Source: Iocasia fonsfrigidae (GTDB lineage Bacteria; Bacillota; Halanaerobiia; Halanaerobiales; DTU029). Taken from it: a DNA stretch of 64,000 bases. Shown here piece by piece: positions 172 to 9,575 of the stretch (the first letter of the stretch is position 1; every line of letters starts with the position of its first letter). The stretch covers positions 2,274,137-2,338,136 of the forward strand of contig NZ_CP046640.1 in assembly GCF_017751145.1 (NCBI RefSeq), read 5' to 3'. Both the position numbers and the translations under genes were made by a program. The notes beneath the pieces are model-generated. The model was not told the DNA's origin. It saw only the letters and a program-made list of their open reading frames with translations, and did no database searches.

Positions 172-1743
172 CTAATGTCTAAAGTGTCTGATACCAGTAA
201 AGACCATAGCAATATTATATTCATTAGCTGCCTCTATTACCTTTTCATCCCTGATTGAACCCCCAGGTTGTATAATTGCCTTAATACCTTTAGCAGCCGC
301 CTCTTCTATCGCATCTGGAAAAGGGAAAAAGGCATCTGAGGCCACTACACCACCTTCCTGTCTGCCCTCTGCTTTACGACCAGCAATTATCATGGAATCA
401 ACACGGCTCATCTGACCAGCTCCCACACCTACAATCATACCATTCCTGGCCATTACTATGGCATTAGATTTGACATGTTTTACTACCTTCCAGGCAAATA
501 ATAAGTCTGCTAACTGCTCTTCTGTGGGTTTAGTATCAGTAACAATCTCCAGGTCATCCCGTTTAACTTGATAGATATCTCTATCTTGAACAAGCAGACC
601 ACCTGTCACTTTTTTCATATCATACCCTGGTTTTTCCCTGTTAATATATAAATCACCTACTTCAAGTATGCGGACATTTTTCCACCTGTTCATTAAAACA
701 TCCAGGGCCTGATTACTATATCCAGGGGCAATAACCACCTCGACAAACTTATCTTTCCCGGCTATTTCATGGGCTAGTTCTTCAGACACCTCTCTATTTA
801 AAGCAACTATACTTCCATAAGCAGATAAAGGATCACCGGCATGGGCATTTTTATATGCCTCTACAATATTATCTGCTACAGCCATTCCACAGGGATTGGC
901 ATGTTTAATCACAGCTGCTGCTGGCCTGTCCTCAAACTCTTTAACCAATTCCAGGGCACCATTTGTATCATTTATATTATTAAAGGACAACTCTTTACCA
1001 TGGAGTTGTTTAGCTGTTGTAATAGAAGGCTCTGCAAATGACTTTTCCTGATAAAAAGCAGCTTTTTGATGTGGATTTTCACCATAACGCAGGTTCGATT
1101 TCTTCTGATACCTATCCATAATCACCTCAGGTAGATGGTTATCATTACCTCCCTCAATAACATCAGCCAGGTAATCCTGAATCAAATGGTCATATTCTGC
1201 TGTATGCTGAAAGGCCTGATAGGCTAACTCAAGTTTGGTCTCTTTACTCACAGAGCCATTATTATCTTTTAATTCCTTAAGCACTTTATGATAATTTTCC
1301 GGGTTAACAACAACAACGACATCATTATTATTTTTGGCAGCAGACCTGATCATTGTTGGGCCACCAATATCAATATTTTCAATCGCTTCTTCCAGGCTGA
1401 CACCCTCTCTGGCAATTGTCTCAGCAAAGGGATAGAGATTACAGACAATAAGGTCAATAGGGGTAATCCCCTGTTCAGCCAGTTCTATCATATGCTGTTT
1501 ATTGTCCCTGACTGCCAGTATTCCACCATGCACAGCCGGATGCAGGGTCTTAACCCTCCCATCCATCATTTCGGGAAAATCTGTTATCTCACTTATTCTG
1601 ATTACAGGCAGACTAGCTTCTGTTAATTTTGCAGCAGTACCACCCGTAGATATTAATTCAATTCCCAATTCATTTAATCCCCTGGCAAATTCAACAATTC
1701 CCTCTTTATTGGAAACACTCAGCAAAGCACGTTTTACTTGCAT
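172..1743 (-). CDS. purH: Bifunctional AICAR transformylase/IMP cyclohydrolase PurH
   Basis: Catalyses the last two steps of IMP synthesis: formylation of AICAR with 10-formyl-THF, then ring closure to IMP, in the cytosol. The N-terminal MGS-like IMP cyclohydrolase domain (about residues 1-190, with STGGTA and DGRVKTLHP) is followed by the transformylase domain with the IKHANPCG motif near residue 280. Length (about 523 aa) is normal. The second in-frame ATG is preferred because AAGGGTGA lies 6-7 nt before it, whereas the first ATG abuts that site. It is the last gene of the purine operon, 15 nt after purN. No clear terminator is seen downstream; the end of a palindromic element follows instead. 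Confidence 0.97.
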   Translation of the reverse strand: MQVKRALLSVSNKEGIVEFARGLNELGIELISTGGTAAKLTEASLPVIRISEITDFPEMMDGRVKTLHPAVHGGILAVRDNKQHMIELAEQGITPIDLIVCNLYPFAETIAREGVSLEEAIENIDIGGPTMIRSAAKNNNDVVVVVNPENYHKVLKELKDNNGSVSKETKLELAYQAFQHTAEYDHLIQDYLADVIEGGNDNHLPEVIMDRYQKKSNLRYGENPHQKAAFYQEKSFAEPSITTAKQLHGKELSFNNINDTNGALELVKEFEDRPAAAVIKHANPCGMAVADNIVEAYKNAHAGDPLSAYGSIVALNREVSEELAHEIAGKDKFVEVVIAPGYSNQALDVLMNRWKNVRILEVGDLYINREKPGYDMKKVTGGLLVQDRDIYQVKRDDLEIVTDTKPTEEQLADLLFAWKVVKHVKSNAIVMARNGMIVGVGAGQMSRVDSMIIAGRKAEGRQEGGVVASDAFFPFPDAIEEAAAKGIKAIIQPGGSIRDEKVIEAANEYNIAMVFTGIRHFRH

Positions 1744-1758
1744 AATCATTCACCCTTT

Positions 1759-2364
1759 CTATTCCTTAATAATAACCTTTCTACCTTTTACCTGGAGTTT
1801 GTTTTCACTATAAAGCCTGATTGCCTCTGGATATATCACATGCTCTTTTTCGAGTATCCTGTTAGCCAGGGATTCTTCAGTGTCATTATCTTTGATCGAT
1901 ACAACCGCCTGAAGAATAATCGGGCCTGTATCCATTCCCTGATCCGCAAAATGGACCGTACAACCAGTGTATTTAACACCATATTCAAGTGCCTGGCGTT
2001 GGGCATGCAAACCAGGAAATGATGGTAATAAAGATGGATGGATATTCATGATCTGTCCCTGGTAATATTCTATAAAATCCTTCCCCAGGATTCTCATAAA
2101 ACCGGCCATTACCACTAAATCAATTCCTTTTTCTTCAAATACTTTAATAATAGCCTTTTCATAATTACTTTCACTCCCATAAGAAGCTGGCTCAATAAAC
2201 CGGGCAGCAATATTATGTTTTCTGGCCTTATCAAGGGCTCCAGCATCCTTATTATCACTTACTACAATTCTGATCTCAGCACTCAGACTAGCTTTTTCAA
2301 TACTATTAATAATTGACTGCAGGTTACTACCTCTCCCTGAAGCCAGCACAGCAATTTTTAACAC
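1759..2364 (-). CDS. purN: Phosphoribosylglycinamide formyltransferase PurN
   Basis: Formylates GAR to FGAR with 10-formyl-THF, the third step of purine synthesis. The N-terminus ASGRGSNLQSI is the family phosphate-binding loop. NIHPSLLPSFPG carries the catalytic Asn-His pair near residue 107, and the Asp of the D-x-G-x-D-T-G-P motif (DQGMDTGPII) completes the triad. At 201 aa it matches the single-domain folate-dependent enzyme. Translation starts at GTG with a G-rich site upstream. It sits between purM and purH with short spacers, consistent with one polycistronic message. Confidence 0.97.
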   Translation of the reverse strand: MLKIAVLASGRGSNLQSIINSIEKASLSAEIRIVVSDNKDAGALDKARKHNIAARFIEPASYGSESNYEKAIIKVFEEKGIDLVVMAGFMRILGKDFIEYYQGQIMNIHPSLLPSFPGLHAQRQALEYGVKYTGCTVHFADQGMDTGPIILQAVVSIKDNDTEESLANRILEKEHVIYPEAIRLYSENKLQVKGRKVIIKE

Positions 2365-2378
2365 CCAGGTTTCCCCCT

Positions 2379-3407
2379 TTATTTAATCTCAACACTATTT
2401 TCTCCTGGGACTACTTCCCCGATTAAACAGGCTGATTCACCAAGTCCAGCAGCACATTTTAAAATTTGTTCACAATCAGTTTTATCTACTACCAGAATCA
2501 TTCCAATCCCCATGTTAAAGGTATGATACATCTCCTTTAGCTCAATATCACCTACAGTTTGTAATAAATTAAACACAGCCGGGATCTGCCAGCTTCCCTC
2601 TTCAATGACTACCCCTGTTCCCTGAGGCAAAATGCGGGGGATATTCTCTAGAAAACCACCCCCGGTAATATGGGCAATACCCTTAATACTGAATTTATCC
2701 AGCATCTTTAAAACAGGATCAGTATAAATCCTGGTTGGTTTTAATAACTCTTCCCCCAGGCTCATCTCTAATCCTTCAATCTCTTGCTCAATATTATAAT
2801 TGGCTAAATCAAAAAAAACTTTTCTAACTAATGAATAACCATTACTGTGTATTCCACTGGAGGGGAGGCCGATTATCTTATCTCCTGCCTTAATACCTTC
2901 TCCACTTATGATCTCTTTTTTATCAACCAGTCCTACTACAAAACCTGCTAAATCATATTCTTCATCCTGATAAAAATCAGGTAGTTCAGCGGTTTCTCCA
3001 CCAATAAGTGAACAGCCCGCCCGTTTACACCCTGCTACAATACCATTTACTATTTCTGCTGCCTTAGCTGGATTAAGTTTTCCTGTTGCCAAGTAATCAA
3101 GAAAGAATAATGGCCTAGCACCCTGGGCCAGGACATCATTAACACACATTGCTACTAGATCAATTCCAATTGTATCATGTTTATCCATCATAAAAGCTAT
3201 TTTCAGCTTAGTACCTACACCATCAGTCCCTGAGACCAGCACCGGCTCTTCCATGCCCTGTAATACAGGGGCATAGAGTCCACCAAAACCACCTAAACCT
3301 GTTAAAACCTGATGATCAAAGGTTGATTCAACCTTTTCTTTTATCCTACTGATAGCCTTATTACCAGCAGCAATATCTACACCTGCATCCTTATATGTTA
3401 AGCCCAT
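2379..3407 (-). CDS. purM: Phosphoribosylformylglycinamidine cyclo-ligase PurM (AIR synthetase)
   Basis: ATP-dependent closure of FGAM to aminoimidazole ribonucleotide (AIR). The N-terminus MGLTYKDAGVDIAAGN is the family signature, followed by the GTDGVGTKLKIA motif near residue 60 and a glycine-rich ITGGGFLENIPRI segment near 250. Length 342 aa is typical. Its ATG overlaps the purF stop by one base (TAATG), implying translational coupling. No purL/purS/purQ genes (FGAM synthetase, the step that makes its substrate) are found in this operon or window; they must lie elsewhere. Confidence 0.97.
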   Translation of the reverse strand: MGLTYKDAGVDIAAGNKAISRIKEKVESTFDHQVLTGLGGFGGLYAPVLQGMEEPVLVSGTDGVGTKLKIAFMMDKHDTIGIDLVAMCVNDVLAQGARPLFFLDYLATGKLNPAKAAEIVNGIVAGCKRAGCSLIGGETAELPDFYQDEEYDLAGFVVGLVDKKEIISGEGIKAGDKIIGLPSSGIHSNGYSLVRKVFFDLANYNIEQEIEGLEMSLGEELLKPTRIYTDPVLKMLDKFSIKGIAHITGGGFLENIPRILPQGTGVVIEEGSWQIPAVFNLLQTVGDIELKEMYHTFNMGIGMILVVDKTDCEQILKCAAGLGESACLIGEVVPGENSVEIK

Positions 3408-4810
3408 TATTTTACCCCCTTATTAACTAACTCACTACCAACCGGGTATTCACCACTAAAACAAGCTGTACAGAAACCATAATCCACTGCTTTAATTGAC
3501 TTTAATAATCCCTTAATACTCAGATAGTTGAGAGAATCTGCTCCAATATGCTCACAGATACCTTCAAGATCCATCTGCCTAGCAATAAGTTCCTGACAGT
3601 TAGAAATATCTATTCCATAATAACAGGGGTTAATAACAGGTGGGGAAGAAATAGCAATATGAACCTCTTTAGCACCAGCCTCACGAACCCTATTAATTAT
3701 CTGTCTACTGGTTGTCCCTCTTACTATTGAATCATCAACCAGGATAACCCGCTTCCCTTTGATTACCTCTTTGATGGGGCTTAACTTAATACGTACCTTT
3801 AAGTCCCTTATTTCCTGGGTTGGTTGAATAAATGTCCTTCCCACATACCTATTACGCAAAATTCCTTTGGTATATGGTATCCCTGATTCCTCTGCAAAAC
3901 CCATGGCAGCCGACTTGCCAGAATCAGGTACTGGAACAACTATATCTGCCTCCACCTTTATTTCACGGGCCATCTGTCTACCCATCTCTCTGCGGGCCAG
4001 GTGGACATTCTGCCCCCCTATATTACTATCAGGCCTTGCAAAATATATAAATTCAAAGACGCAAAATCTATATGGTTTATTACTACTATAATGGTGGCTT
4101 TTGATACCATCCCTATCTATGACAATAAGTTCACCTGGTTCTATCTCTCTAATAAATTCAGCCCCAATAATATCAAAAGCACAGGTCTCAGAAGCTATTA
4201 CATAACCTGTCTCCATTCTACCAAGAACCAATGGTCTAAGACCAAAGGGATCCCTGGCTGCTACCAGGTTATCCCTGGTCATAGCGACAATACTATAACC
4301 ACCCTTTAGTTGATGGAGGGTCTGAGTCAGGGCATCTATTAGATTATCTTCAAAAGAACGAGCAACCAGATGAGCAATTACCTCTGTATCAAGGGTGGAA
4401 TGAAAGATTGAACCATGGGATTCCAGATTCTGCCTTAATTCTGCAGCATTTATCAGATTACCATTATGGGCTAATGACAGGTACCCTTTGTTACAATTTA
4501 TTAATAAAGGCTGAGCATTTGTCAGCATACTTGAACCAGAAGTAGAATACCTTACATGACCAATTGCCATCTCACCCTGCAGCTTATTTAAAATTTCTTC
4601 ATTAAAGACATTTGATACTAAACCCATTGCCTTATGATTTTTTAAGTTACCACTATCATTAACACAGATACCTGCACTCTCCTGTCCTCTATGCTGCAGG
4701 GCAAGCAGACCAAGATAACTTATAGTAGAAATACTATCTTTCTTTTCCGGGGCATAAATACCAAAAACACCACACTCTTCCCCCAATTTTTCTATCATAC
4801 TTTTTTTCAT
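3407..4810 (-). CDS. purF: Amidophosphoribosyltransferase PurF
   Basis: Committed step of purine synthesis: PRPP plus glutamine gives phosphoribosylamine. A short propeptide (about 11 residues) precedes the catalytic Cys in EECGVFGIYAP, so the Ntn-hydrolase domain is probably self-processed as in Bacillus PurF. The C-terminal PRTase domain carries VILVDDSIVRGTT (PRPP loop). Four cysteines suitable for a structural Fe-S cluster are present toward the C-terminus (CYYGIDISNC, CTACFSG), as in the Bacillus-type enzyme. Length 467 aa is normal. The start could be the first ATG or the ATG four codons later. Confidence 0.96.
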   Translation of the reverse strand: MKKSMIEKLGEECGVFGIYAPEKKDSISTISYLGLLALQHRGQESAGICVNDSGNLKNHKAMGLVSNVFNEEILNKLQGEMAIGHVRYSTSGSSMLTNAQPLLINCNKGYLSLAHNGNLINAAELRQNLESHGSIFHSTLDTEVIAHLVARSFEDNLIDALTQTLHQLKGGYSIVAMTRDNLVAARDPFGLRPLVLGRMETGYVIASETCAFDIIGAEFIREIEPGELIVIDRDGIKSHHYSSNKPYRFCVFEFIYFARPDSNIGGQNVHLARREMGRQMAREIKVEADIVVPVPDSGKSAAMGFAEESGIPYTKGILRNRYVGRTFIQPTQEIRDLKVRIKLSPIKEVIKGKRVILVDDSIVRGTTSRQIINRVREAGAKEVHIAISSPPVINPCYYGIDISNCQELIARQMDLEGICEHIGADSLNYLSIKGLLKSIKAVDYGFCTACFSGEYPVGSELVNKGVK

Positions 4811-4860
4811 CTCCTCACCATAGAATCAAGAGTATAAAGGTTTAATTTTCAGTAATTAAT

Positions 4861-5568
4861 TTACCCCTGTAGACGTCTTAATATTTCCTGATATGCCCCT
4901 TCAACTCCCCCTAAATCTCTGCGGAAACGATCTTTATCAAGTTTTTCCCTGGTTTCACTATCCCAGAAACGACAGGTATCAGGTGATATTTCGTCACCAA
5001 GATATATCTTGCCATCACTACCCTTACCAAACTCTAATTTAAAATCAACCAGTTCAATGCCTTTATCCTTTAAAAAATCAATCAAGAGTTCATTTATTTT
5101 AAAGGATAATTCCTTAATCCGGGCAATTTCTTCTCTATCTGCCATCTTCTGAGCATAAATATGGTATTCATTTATCATAGGGTCACCAAGGTCATCATCT
5201 TTATAATAGAATTCCAGAACCGGTTGGCTCATAACTGTTCCTTCTTCAAGTCCTAACCTCTTGGCAAGACTTCCGGCAGCAATATTCCTCATTACAACCT
5301 CTACCGGTATAATTTCCAGTTTCCTAACCAGAACCTCTGTTTCACTAATCTCTTCTAAAAGGTGTGTGGGGACATTATTATCGGCCAGCAATTTAAAAAA
5401 GATATTTGAAATCTTATTATTCATAATACCCTTACCACTTATCTGTCCCTTTTTCTCTCCATTAAAAGCAGTTGCATCATCCTTAAATAATACTATTAAT
5501 TTATCATCTTCTTTAGTTTTATAAATCTGCTTGGCCTTCCCCTCATATAGCATTTCTTTCTTTATCAT
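4861..5568 (-). CDS. purC: SAICAR synthetase PurC
   Basis: ATP-dependent ligation of aspartate to CAIR. The N-terminus MLYEGKAKQIYKT and the FKLEFGK and GDEISPDTCRFWD motifs are diagnostic. Length (235 aa from the chosen start) matches bacterial monofunctional PurC. Two adjacent ATGs follow AGGAGGGGT; the second, 6 nt from AGGAGG, is preferred. The start overlaps the purB stop (ATGATGA arrangement), so the genes are probably coupled. A longer upstream reading inside purB has no ribosome site of its own. Confidence 0.96.
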   Translation of the reverse strand: MIKKEMLYEGKAKQIYKTKEDDKLIVLFKDDATAFNGEKKGQISGKGIMNNKISNIFFKLLADNNVPTHLLEEISETEVLVRKLEIIPVEVVMRNIAAGSLAKRLGLEEGTVMSQPVLEFYYKDDDLGDPMINEYHIYAQKMADREEIARIKELSFKINELLIDFLKDKGIELVDFKLEFGKGSDGKIYLGDEISPDTCRFWDSETREKLDKDRFRRDLGGVEGAYQEILRRLQG

Positions 5569-6974
5569 CATACCCCTCCTAATATTTTTAGCTTTTTCTG
5601 CCATTTTTGAATAACTGCCTCGGTCTTCTTGCCAGCAATACCTGTATACTCCTCTGGATTAGCCAATATCTCCCGTTGCCTTGCAGTAAATCTTTCTAAA
5701 TAAGCCTTTAATTCATCCTTTTCAGGAATCAATTCCCGTAGTGTTTTGCCTGACTCCTGTGCCTCAAGTGTCAATCGGCGTACTGCTTCATGTGCATCAG
5801 GGTGTCCATATGAGGCCAGTAATATATATAATGGTTCAGCCACAATCATCTCTTTATTCAGAGTAAAATTCTTTTTTATATTATCATAATCAACTGCTAG
5901 TTTGCTGAAAACCCTGATTAACCTATTAGCAGCTGATAATAACCCTACAACTATTTCAGGTATAAAACGACCTGAAGCTGAATTTGTAAGGTCTCGCTGA
6001 TGTTCAGAAATCTGATCCTGATAAAGAGTAATCATCCTGGGCATAAACTCTTTCCAGAGACTCTTCACATTCTCATAGTTTATAGGATTTCTTTTATGAG
6101 GCATGGTAGAAGAACCAACTTGATCTTTGTCAAAATACTCCCCAACCTCTGCTATTTCACTACGCTGTAGATGGCGCATATCATCACTCAAATTCGCTAA
6201 AACACCAAAGCAGGAGACAATAGAATGCACAAAATCAGTCACATATTCAGGTTCTACAATTTGTGTAGAATGAGACCCGGCCTTTAATCCAAGCTCGGCT
6301 AATACCTCTGCCTCAAATTCATCAGGTTCATCAAAAAATAGGTGGCTTGCATTATAAGCCCCTACCGCCCCTGCTATCTTTCCTCTTAGTAACTGACTCT
6401 TTTTACCTATCTCTTCTATTCGATTTCCCAGACGACTAACATATTCAGCAATGGTAAAACCAAATGTTACCGGTACGGCATGCTGCCCATGTGTCCTGCC
6501 GATCTGAACAGTCTCTTTTTCCCTATCTGCTAAATCCATCAACATCTTTTCCAGCTTGATAAGTGTGGGAATAATTAATTCCCGACTTGTCTCCTTAAGA
6601 CGTAAAGAATTAGCTGTATCAACAATATCAAATGAAGTTGTTGTAAAATGGACATATGGTTTGGCCTGATCACTAACCCGTTTTTGTATACAATTTACCA
6701 GGGCACGTATATCATGTCTGGTCTTTTTTTCCTCCTGATATACCTCCTCTACTGTAATATCCTTAACTACTTCTAGCAGTTCTCCAGCAACTTCTGCAGG
6801 ACATATTTCTCTTTTAGCCAGCACCTTTACCAAAGCCGCTTCAACCTGAAGTTGATAGCCTATCCGGGCCTTTTCAGATAAATATTTCTTATAATCCTGA
6901 TACTCCTCTTCTCTTAAGGAATAACGATGGTCTAAAGGGCTTATATTCTCAAAGATATTACGCCTTATCACCAT
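5568..6974 (-). CDS. purB: Adenylosuccinate lyase PurB
   Basis: Fumarase/aspartase-superfamily lyase acting twice: SAICAR to AICAR plus fumarate, and adenylosuccinate to AMP plus fumarate. The signature GSSTMPHKRNP (about residue 285) carries the mobile catalytic loop, and TSFDIVDTAN and GRTHGQHAVP are conserved active-site segments. Length 468 aa is within the range of bacterial PurB. It starts two bases after the purE stop and overlaps purC, so it sits in the middle of a tightly packed run. Confidence 0.97.
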   Translation of the reverse strand: MVIRRNIFENISPLDHRYSLREEEYQDYKKYLSEKARIGYQLQVEAALVKVLAKREICPAEVAGELLEVVKDITVEEVYQEEKKTRHDIRALVNCIQKRVSDQAKPYVHFTTTSFDIVDTANSLRLKETSRELIIPTLIKLEKMLMDLADREKETVQIGRTHGQHAVPVTFGFTIAEYVSRLGNRIEEIGKKSQLLRGKIAGAVGAYNASHLFFDEPDEFEAEVLAELGLKAGSHSTQIVEPEYVTDFVHSIVSCFGVLANLSDDMRHLQRSEIAEVGEYFDKDQVGSSTMPHKRNPINYENVKSLWKEFMPRMITLYQDQISEHQRDLTNSASGRFIPEIVVGLLSAANRLIRVFSKLAVDYDNIKKNFTLNKEMIVAEPLYILLASYGHPDAHEAVRRLTLEAQESGKTLRELIPEKDELKAYLERFTARQREILANPEEYTGIAGKKTEAVIQKWQKKLKILGGV

Positions 6975-6976
6975 AA

Positions 6977-7492
6977 CTAACCCCTTTCTTCAAGATATTT
7001 TTGATAACCAAGCTTTTCTAAAGCTGCTGCAGTCTCTGTTACCTTCTCAGCCATCCTGTTCTTATATTCTTTAAACTTATCTCTTAACTTTTTATCAGCT
7101 GTACCCAGTATCTGGATTGCTAGCAATCCGGCATTTTTTGCACCATTAAGGGCAACAGTTGCTACTGGTACCCCACCAGGCATCTGTACCATAGAATAAA
7201 GTGAATCAGCACCACCTAGTGTAGATGTTTTAATAGGAACACCAATTAGTGGTAAGGGGGTATATGCAGCCAGTACCCCAGCTAAATGAGCTGCCTTACC
7301 GGCACCGGCTATTATAACTTCCAGACCCCTTTCTTCCGCAGTTCTGGCATATTCCTCTGCTGCAACTGGTGTGCGGTGTGCTGAAATAACAGTTATCTCA
7401 AAGTCAACTGCAAACTCTTCCAGTACTTCTGCAGCCTCTTTCATAACCGGCAAATCCGAATCACTCCCCATCACTATCCCAACCCTGGCCAT
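6977..7492 (-). CDS. purE: N5-carboxyaminoimidazole ribonucleotide mutase PurE
   Basis: Class I PurE, converting N5-CAIR to [20 protein letters not shown] near the N-terminus and SAHRTP (with the catalytic His) are diagnostic, followed by [15 protein letters not shown]. Length 171 aa is normal. No purK is seen here, although class I PurE normally uses N5-CAIR made by PurK, so purK should be elsewhere or bypassed. The gene is separated from purD by about 460 bp holding a repeat element and a small broken-looking ORF, an unusual interruption of an otherwise gapless operon. Confidence 0.97.
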
Positions 7493-7541: not shown

Positions 7542-7935
7542 TGAACAAAATGGCTCCGCCACCCTACTGCAACTCAGAATCCCCTTCTGTTTTACGGTAG
7601 GGGTATTTAATATAAGATGATTCAAAAACCATCTTTGTAAGACATTCAGGACATGCCACTCCAGGCATTTCCCCTTCTTTCAATTTTTGAACCATTGCAA
7701 ACTCATCTACTACAAAATCAGGTAGAATACTTCTTACACAAAGTTAACTAATTTTAATAATCCAGACAGATATATTTGTTGTACGACTCTAGAAATTATC
7801 CGTAGGCAGGACGCCGGAGGATAATTTCTCGACAGTAAGCGGAGGTAGGACACCGCAGCACACGACAAGGAAAACAAATATATCTGTCGGTCTTCAAAGT
7901 TATCCACAATCTCGAAAAAACATAGAGTTTTCCTG
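7542..7935 (+). repeat. Modular palindromic element, copy 1 (inside the pur operon)
   Basis: Left end TGAACAAAATGGC, shared with the other copies. Outer arms at 7766-7780 and 7873-7887 are perfectly complementary over 15 bp. Inner arms GAAATTATCC (7792-7801) and GGATAATTTC (7819-7828) enclose hairpin GGC-AGGAC-GCC (7805-7815). A second hairpin GGT-AGGAC-ACC is at 7844-7854. Imperfect direct repeats AAAGTTAAC and AAAGTTATC bracket the core. A coding-like segment at 7564-7743 lies between left end and core. The purD-purE message must be transcribed through it (as the reverse complement), so it could fold strongly between the two genes. Confidence 0.8.
7564..7695 (-). pseudogene. Small zinc-ribbon-like ORF, possibly a truncated gene
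   Basis: A 43-codon frame from ATG encodes a peptide with a CPEC motif near residue 15 and a charged, coding-like C-terminal half (KMVFESSYIKYPYR). The same frame stays open upstream (ILPDFVVDEF before the ATG) until a stop formed by the repeat's GTTAAC end at 7744-7746. This suggests the element's core replaced the gene's 5' part. No convincing ribosome site precedes the ATG. It may be a remnant or a tiny real gene; I do not recognise the family. Confidence 0.35.
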
Positions 7936-7950
7936 GTAGTAGAAACAAAT

Positions 7951-9219
7951 CTACTTAAGGGCCTTACTGGCTATATCATTTCGATAGTAAGCCCCTTCAA
8001 AATCAATCAAAGATACACCCTGATAAGCAAGATCAATTGTTGACTGATAGTCTTCCTCCAGAGCAGTAACAGCCAGTACCCTGCCACCATCTGTCACAAT
8101 ATTACCCTGGCAAACTGCTGTCCCTGCCTGAAAAACAATAATATTATCCTGATTATCAGCTTCTTCTATTCCTGTAATCACCTTCCCTTTTTCATAATTA
8201 TTTGGATAACCACCAGAAGCCATTATTACAGCTACCGCTTTTTTATCTAACCAACTTAATTCAATATCAGCTAGCTTACCTGTAATAACAGCCTCAGCAA
8301 TATCTATTATATCTGTTTGTAACAAAGGTAAAATAATCTGGGCCTCAGGGTCACCAAAACGGACATTATATTCCAGCACCCTAGCCCCAGTATCAGCAAT
8401 CATCAGTCCACAATATAGAACACCCTTGTAGTTTATCCCTTCTTCTCTTAACCCAGAAATAGTTGGCCTAAGTATCTTATCATAAATATCACTCATAAGT
8501 GATTCACCTACTACTGGTGCCGGGGCATAAGCACCCATCCCCCCAGTATTAGGCCCCTGATCATGATCATAGGCTGGTTTATGGTCCTGGGAGGGTAGCA
8601 TCGGCATAATTGTCTCACCATCAACAAAAGCAAGCACTGTAGCCTCTTGGCCAGAGAGGTATTCTTCAATAACAATCCTCTCACCAGCCTGTCCAAACCT
8701 CTCCTCAATCATAATACTATTTACTGCCTCAATGGCCTCTTCTTCTGTCCCGGCCACAAAAACACCCTTACCTGCTGCTAAACCTTCTGCCTTAACAACA
8801 ATAGGAACCCCTTTATCCTGAATATATTTAACTGCTTCAGCCGGCCTGGTAAATGACCGGTATTCAGCAGTAGGGATATTGTATTTTCCCATGAAATCCT
8901 TGGAAAAAACCTTACTACCTTCCAGTTGGGCAGCTTTACTATCAGGTCCAAAAATCATTAACCCCCTATCTTGAAATCTATCTACTATCCCAGCTACTAA
9001 CGGGGCCTCAGGACCAACAAAAGTCAAATCAATCTCCTTTTTGCTAGCAAAATCTACCAATCCATCAATATCACAACTGTCAATAGCCAGATTAGTAGCA
9101 ATCTGTGCTGTCCCAGCATTACCTGGAGCTACATATATCTCATCAACCCGATTACTTTGAGCTATTTTCCAGGTCAAGACATGTTCCCTACCACCATTGC
9201 CTATTACTAATACCTTCAT
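7951..9219 (-). CDS. purD: Phosphoribosylamine-glycine ligase PurD (GAR synthetase)
   Basis: ATP-grasp ligase joining glycine to phosphoribosylamine. The N-terminus MKVLVIGNGGREH and the motifs FGPDSKAAQLEGSK, VKAEGLAAGKGV and RFGDPEAQ are family landmarks. Length 422 aa is standard. It is the first gene after the tandem riboswitch leader, whereas purD is the last gene of the Bacillus subtilis operon. A GGGGTATAA site precedes the ATG. It is followed by a 460-bp gap with a repeat element before purE. Confidence 0.97.
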   Translation of the reverse strand: MKVLVIGNGGREHVLTWKIAQSNRVDEIYVAPGNAGTAQIATNLAIDSCDIDGLVDFASKKEIDLTFVGPEAPLVAGIVDRFQDRGLMIFGPDSKAAQLEGSKVFSKDFMGKYNIPTAEYRSFTRPAEAVKYIQDKGVPIVVKAEGLAAGKGVFVAGTEEEAIEAVNSIMIEERFGQAGERIVIEEYLSGQEATVLAFVDGETIMPMLPSQDHKPAYDHDQGPNTGGMGAYAPAPVVGESLMSDIYDKILRPTISGLREEGINYKGVLYCGLMIADTGARVLEYNVRFGDPEAQIILPLLQTDIIDIAEAVITGKLADIELSWLDKKAVAVIMASGGYPNNYEKGKVITGIEEADNQDNIIVFQAGTAVCQGNIVTDGGRVLAVTALEEDYQSTIDLAYQGVSLIDFEGAYYRNDIASKALK

Positions 9220-9261
9220 ATTTATACCCCCAATATACTATTTGATATTTTATACCAGCAA

Positions 9262-9322
9262 AACAAAAACGCCCAGCAGGAAAGATCTACTTTTATCATG
9301 AGTAGAACCTCCCCGCCTGGGC
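9262..9322 (-). terminator. Regulated intrinsic terminator of the pur leader
   Basis: On the minus strand, GCCCAGGCGGGGA pairs with TCCTGCTGGGC (one bulged G), followed by GTTTTTGTTTT. The 5' arm re-uses the 3' strand of the ykkC-type aptamer (AAAAGCCC...AGGT), so aptamer folding and terminator formation exclude each other. Confidence 0.85.
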
Positions 9323-9414
9323 TTTTATCCCTTCGGTGTGATATAAAATATCTGTACCGCTTGGACCTGCCATTTTATATATCAGCTAATAATATAATAT
9401 GCGGAAACCTAGGT
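9307..9414 (-). promoter_or_regulatory. ykkC-class aptamer, most likely PRPP riboswitch
   Basis: The minus-strand RNA reads ACCTAGGTTTCCGC, then a variable AT-rich stem, then GGCAGGTCCAAGCGGTACAG, ACACCGAAGGGATAAAAGCC and a closing AGGT that pairs with the first ACCT. These blocks and their order match the ykkC core (GGTTCCG, CTGGTCCRAG, GGGATAAAAGCCC). Because it precedes de novo purine genes and follows a guanine aptamer, the PRPP-binding subtype is far likelier than guanidine or ppGpp. Overlap with the terminator's 5' arm predicts that ligand binding prevents termination. Subtype assignment is inference. Confidence 0.8.
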
Positions 9415-9421
9415 ACACTTC

Positions 9422-9490
9422 CCTCATAGTCAGACAGTTTGCGGCCGTCTGGTAGAAACTTGCAGGCCATATTCCCACGATTATATGAGG
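9422..9490 (-). promoter_or_regulatory. Guanine (purine) riboswitch aptamer
   Basis: The minus strand matches the purine aptamer: P1 CCTCATA/TATGAGG, J1/2 TAATCGTGGGAATATGG, J2/3 GTTTCTACC and J3/1 GACTATGAGG. The C in GACTATG (position 74 of the xpt aptamer; U in adenine aptamers) predicts guanine/hypoxanthine specificity. It sits 5' of the ykkC-type aptamer and both precede one terminator ahead of purD. Confidence 0.93.
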
Positions 9491-9546
9491 TAACTTTTAG
9501 TTTTATTCTATTGTTAAATACAATGTTATAATTAAATTACATATAA

Positions 9547-9575
9547 ATCATAACAAATCCTTTCACCTTAGTCAA
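9547..9575 (-). promoter_or_regulatory. purD: Sigma-A-type promoter of the pur operon
   Basis: TTGACT at 9570-9575 and TATGAT at 9547-9552 on the minus strand are separated by 17 bp. Transcription would start near 9540, about 50 nt before the guanine aptamer. Confidence 0.8.

Follow-up and report, generated by a model that had tools for sequence, protein, structure and literature searches.

A guanine–PRPP tandem riboswitch, very probably of the IMPLY type, ahead of the purDEBCFMNH operon of Iocasia fonsfrigidae

Analysis of a 64,000-nucleotide stretch of the I. fonsfrigidae genome (the window) indicates that the leader of the purDEBCFMNH operon is very probably a guanine–PRPP tandem riboswitch, acting as a transcription-attenuating two-input switch of the IMPLY type. 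In sequence and structure, both aptamers are intact and one terminator is common to them, and we infer the ligand responses and the IMPLY logic of this RNA from its published relatives. The leader is a further copy of a kind already known: the guanine–PRPP tandem was described by Sherlock et al. (2018, eLife 7:e33908) with B. megaterium codA and 127 examples (PMC5912903), and the count had reached 192 by 2022 (PMC9481103). An earlier note on this DNA had correctly recognized a guanine aptamer with a ykkC aptamer behind it (87.8 bits with RF00167 and 102 bits with the PRPP model described below), in an interval, 9262-9490, that proved accurate. It had also recommended the leader as a natural test of the arrangement, for which there is little need, since the same architecture has been tested both in vitro and in vivo elsewhere (PMC5912903) and occurs in most genomes of the order.

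The Rfam search of the 64-kb window returned a full-length match to the Purine family (RF00167) at 9508..9407 on the minus strand, the strand of all leader features described here, with 87.8 bits (E 1.4e-14) against a curated cut-off of 37, which identifies a purine riboswitch. Together with this match, reading of the sequence placed the aptamer core, from P1 to P1, at 9490..9422, with P1 formed by CCUCAUA (9490-9484) and UAUGAGG (9428-9422), J2/3 reading UUUCUACC, and C74 corresponding to C9429 within GACUAUG. In the purine riboswitch family, C74 is the mark of guanine rather than adenine specificity. Thus, by C74 and the RF00167 score, the first aptamer is predicted to be of the guanine type. 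A consensus scan further gave a candidate sigma-A-like promoter at 9547..9575, consisting of TTGACT (9575-9570), 17 nt and TG-TATGAT (9552-9547), some 57 nt before the guanine P1. Taken alone this candidate is not above shuffle expectation; both paralogous leaders of this genome carry TTGACA/TATAAT at a similar distance.

For the second aptamer, no ykkC family appeared at the gathering level in the Rfam search of the window, and no PRPP family was found among the E-value matches. Guanidine-I (RF00442) matched 9423..9312 at the E-value threshold with 47.1 bits (E 1.6e-07), below its cut-off of 63, a score that is expected given that the ykkC subtype-2 RNAs were separated from guanidine-I in 2018 (PMC5912903). 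Since the gathering level had missed this aptamer and no PRPP family had come up, the subtype was tested with a purpose-built covariance model, R1. It was built from an alignment (A1) of 32 PRPP-type aptamers from other genomes, with the genome of the window left out; the members were picked by motif, mostly with purine-gene context in addition, and are of the PRPP type by that criterion, not by assay. R1 matched 9426..9303 with 102 bits (E 1.4e-26), while no other site in the 64 kb exceeded 6.8 bits. Of the covariance-model check that the earlier note had proposed, the purine part held with Rfam itself (87.8 bits), and the ykkC part fell short with RF00442 (47.1 against 63) and succeeded with R1 (102).

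De novo folding of A1 with RNAalifold recovered P0, P1, parts of the P1a/P2 stack and P3, and compensatory changes were seen both in P0 (column pair 7-147 is A-U in 15 members and G-C in 14; 6-148 occurs as G-C, G-U and U-A) and in P1. Alignment to R1 places P0 of the window aptamer at GGAA (9422-9419) and UUCU (9307-9304), and P1 lies at 9417-9412 with its 3' partner and the P3 tip, GGGAUAAAAGCCC, at 9331-9319. Crystal-structure numbering, which was transferred through conserved motifs and not through alignment to the PDB sequence, assigns G48/C49 to 9360/9359, A74-C75-A76-C77 to 9339-9336 (C75 is C9338 and C77 is C9336), G96 to G9317, and A103-G104-G105 to 9310-9308 (G104 is G9309 and G105 is G9308). 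A5, G6, G48, C75, C77, G104 and G105 are all canonical in the window aptamer, and G96 is invariant across A1. In the co-crystal structure, a pyrimidine at position 49 parts subtype 2 from guanidine-I, and G96 parts PRPP from ppGpp aptamers (PMC6031431). The held-out score, C49, G96 and P0 thus support, from the sequence, the assignment of the second aptamer to the PRPP type (ykkC subtype 2b), which the earlier note had offered as an inference. The aptamer of PDB 6CK5, the PRPP sensor in a guanine–PRPP tandem of Thermoanaerobacter mathranii (PMC6031431), shares all checked pocket residues with the window aptamer but one, namely 101, which is G in the window and A in 6CK5; both bases are seen among the aligned PRPP aptamers.

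Folding predicted an intrinsic terminator with a U-rich tail at 9322..9261 (hairpin 9322..9271, tail 9269-9261), with a 5' arm reading GCCCAGGCGGGGAGGUUCUAC (9322-9302) and a 3' arm ending in GGGC (9274-9271). The hairpin has a folding energy of -30.6 kcal/mol (z -6.8 against mononucleotide shuffles), and the region 9406..9250 folds better than 200 of 200 dinucleotide shuffles. The 5' arm consists of the 3' half of P3, the pocket residues from G96 to G105 and the P0 3' strand, which agrees with the re-use of the ykkC 3' strand claimed earlier; the PRPP-bound fold and the terminator would therefore be mutually exclusive. This terminator is the only one, none being present between the aptamers. 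The two aptamers also adjoin directly: the P0 5' strand begins at G9422, the last base of the guanine P1, without a linker, so that a fully paired guanine P1 and a fully paired P0 should exclude each other. For the T. mathranii tandem, Knappenberger et al. had put forward the same exclusion (PMC6031431). Counting the PRPP P1 from G9416, the two P1 stems are 5 nt apart (9421-9417), within the 5 to 7 nt of the published tandems (PMC5912903). The leader resembles the tandem of Sherlock et al. in the order of the aptamers, the 5-nt spacing, the PRPP-type residues, the purine-gene context and the single terminator overlapping P3/P0, and differs from it only in the particular genes that follow (purDEBCFMNH) and in the organism.

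Two other ligands were weighed for the second aptamer. Were it a ppGpp aptamer (subtype 2a), the leader would sense guanine and an alarmone; the 2a and 2b subtypes differ very little, having the fold, the tail conservation and most core residues in common, and G96A alone converted the T. mathranii PRPP aptamer to a ppGpp aptamer (PMC6031431). Three ppGpp-type RNAs (L089, L118 and L123) score with R1 as well, at up to 77.2 bits. However, these three carry C, or no G, at position 96, the absence of G at this position being the mark of the ppGpp type, whereas G96 is present in the window aptamer and in 34 of 34 relatives from the order. Two of the three precede a peptide-permease-like gene and one a glutamate-synthase-like gene (identities by eye), while the window aptamer precedes purine genes; ppGpp riboswitches in general usually stand before amino-acid genes and often form tandems with T-boxes in which the terminators are separate. 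We therefore regard the ppGpp reading as very unlikely. The guanidine-I reading is more improbable still, to the point of being nearly negligible: RF00442 is the best Rfam family for this element, and guanidine-I riboswitches (ykkC subtype 1) have the same P1/P2/P3 architecture and P3 loop, but the match stays at 47.1 bits against the cut-off of 63, C49 replaces the conserved A, and the P0 helix of the window aptamer is absent from guanidine-I. With R1, nine guanidine-I RNAs score 45-63 bits (maximum 62.7) against 102 for the window aptamer. Guanidine-I riboswitches go with guanidine-related genes, and the purine context of the window aptamer also counts against this reading.

With PRPP as the second ligand, guanine binding to the first aptamer would lock the guanine P1 and, as P1 and P0 have the last P1 base in common, weaken P0; the PRPP aptamer would then be destabilized, the terminator would form and the operon would be off. 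PRPP binding would stabilize P0 and P3 and hold back the 5' arm of the terminator, so that the operon would stay on even in the presence of guanine. In assays of the B. megaterium tandem, PRPP raised and guanine lowered read-through, and PRPP overrode guanine, which corresponds to IMPLY logic (PMC5912903), that is, expression in every state except high guanine with low PRPP (PMC5912903, PMC9481103). The earlier note had instead proposed that expression needs low guanine and high PRPP. This is 'NOT A AND B' logic, and we consider it unlikely, since a single terminator shared by the aptamers, with none between them, is the feature that makes a tandem IMPLY rather than 'NOT A AND B' according to the 2022 census (PMC9481103), and PRPP prevailed over guanine in the tandem that was assayed (PMC5912903). 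What speaks for it is the strong default terminator, with which the state without either ligand may be largely off; the stability of the hairpin (-30.6 kcal/mol) means that this state could be more OFF here than in an ideal IMPLY gate. Under the IMPLY reading, the operon would thus be shut down in a single state, high guanine with low PRPP, and would not require low guanine together with high PRPP for its expression.

The first gene behind the leader is purD (7951..9219, minus strand, start at 9219; TIGR00877, 555.4 bits), and NCBIfam matches identify purE, purB, purC, purF, purM, purN and purH at 172..7492 on the same strand. All of these exceed their NCBIfam cut-offs except purB, which reaches 319 bits against 326 and still has this as its best family. 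A purL-like match, also on this strand, lies about 4.6 kb past purH and does not belong to the purDEBCFMNH run; the earlier description of a switch for the whole purine operon is thus right for purDEBCFMNH and does not extend to purL. The purL-like match (2267811-2269736 of the same contig, minus strand) is located in a 1265-aa open frame and is below the cut-off of TIGR01736, suggesting that the frame probably encodes the long single-chain form. Between purD and purE, a palindromic repeat of about 130-150 bp (window 7780-7930) has 46 matches genome-wide, a few of them fragments, with 72-100% identity, and resembles a non-coding element of the miniature or REP type in the operon. Elsewhere in the window, a predicted PyrR binding site (RF00515, 12467-12370, minus strand, 55.5 bits with a cut-off of 54) stands directly before genes reading as pyrF and pyrE.

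Among 38 genomes of the order, including that of the window, 29 have an RF00442-like match. In the other 28, every one of the 34 ykkC matches lies directly behind a guanine aptamer and carries G96 (one, L039, with a 1-nt insertion in the guanine aptamer, was counted by eye), so that nearly all ykkC RNAs of the order show the tandem arrangement. A comparable terminator hairpin overlaps the aptamer in 34 of 34 of these relatives and in both paralogues of the window's genome. The genes behind the tandems are mostly purD, others being purE, purB-like or purQ-reading (by eye), and some tandems precede transporters of the Xan_ur_permease or BMP type. In the sample of the phylum, 237 of 398 genomes match R1, a model that also catches the ppGpp and guanidine-I subtypes. 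Several other sampled Firmicutes have tandems before permeases similar to the Xan_ur_permease type. In a 6.4-Mb Firmicute (L120, 1963-2092), a guanine and ykkC tandem precedes a xanthine phosphoribosyltransferase-like gene; it has a variant tail, AGAUUC, and its predicted terminator does not contain the GCC of P3. No paper on PRPP riboswitches in Halanaerobiales came up in a literature search. The present data extend the published two-input gate to a complete genome of the Halanaerobiales type, which has three copies.

Within the window's genome (G000), three purine aptamers were found, each followed by a ykkC aptamer. A fourth, weak RF00442 match (19.3 bits, C1:598407) falls within a protein-coding gene and was taken as chance. 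The second tandem (G000:C1:2582251-2582459, minus strand; L008 5252-5460) is canonical, scores 90.2 bits with R1 and precedes a transporter of the Xan_ur_permease family. The third (G000:C1:2788542-2788745, minus strand; L009 5543-5746) scores 52.1 bits with R1 and precedes a 409-aa ORF without a Pfam match, followed by a BMP/PnrA-type ABC transporter. Both extra tandems thus precede transporters, and permeases are absent from the main text of Sherlock et al. (PMC5912903).

By the motif-carried register, the PRPP pocket of the third tandem has the changes A76G, G96A, G99A, G104A and G105A; the guanine aptamer beside it (77.8 bits) and the terminator (-23.8 kcal/mol) are both intact. Judging from these sequences, we read the third copy as one in which PRPP sensing has relaxed, so that what is left would be an OFF switch for guanine or a leader in decay. 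It is conceivable that ppGpp, or another ligand, has replaced PRPP in a natural two-input gate, since G96A alone made the T. mathranii aptamer bind ppGpp, and the copy would then be the natural counterpart of that laboratory mutant. We hold this to be improbable, and a ppGpp switch, as suggested by A96, was rejected as the likeliest reading: G104 and G105 are lost as well, the R1 score is only 52 bits, and the three ppGpp-type RNAs keep most or all of the tail that this copy has lost. Such a guanine–ppGpp gate would be a pairing outside those in the 2022 tandem riboswitch census (PMC9481103).

A protein search of the named genomes with the BMP protein gave one Halanaerobiales relative, a MAG, at 82% identity, and more distant others. 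At the BMP gene, the relative G006 has an intact canonical PRPP tandem (L142, 105.6 bits with R1), G007 and the MAG L046 have only a truncated guanine aptamer, without a ykkC element or terminator, and no such leader was found upstream of the gene in the other relatives inspected. These states likewise spoke against the third copy as a ppGpp switch, and with one relative canonical and another truncated at the same gene, a loss is more probable for the third copy than a new specificity. The copies at the BMP transporter (intact, altered pocket, truncated, absent) form a small natural series of possible gate loss. The guanine-aptamer remnant before the BMP gene in L140, from a relative, and in L046 (about 3840-3900), the Halanaerobiales MAG, comprises only the P1 5' strand, P2 and J2/3, an apparent step in riboswitch loss.
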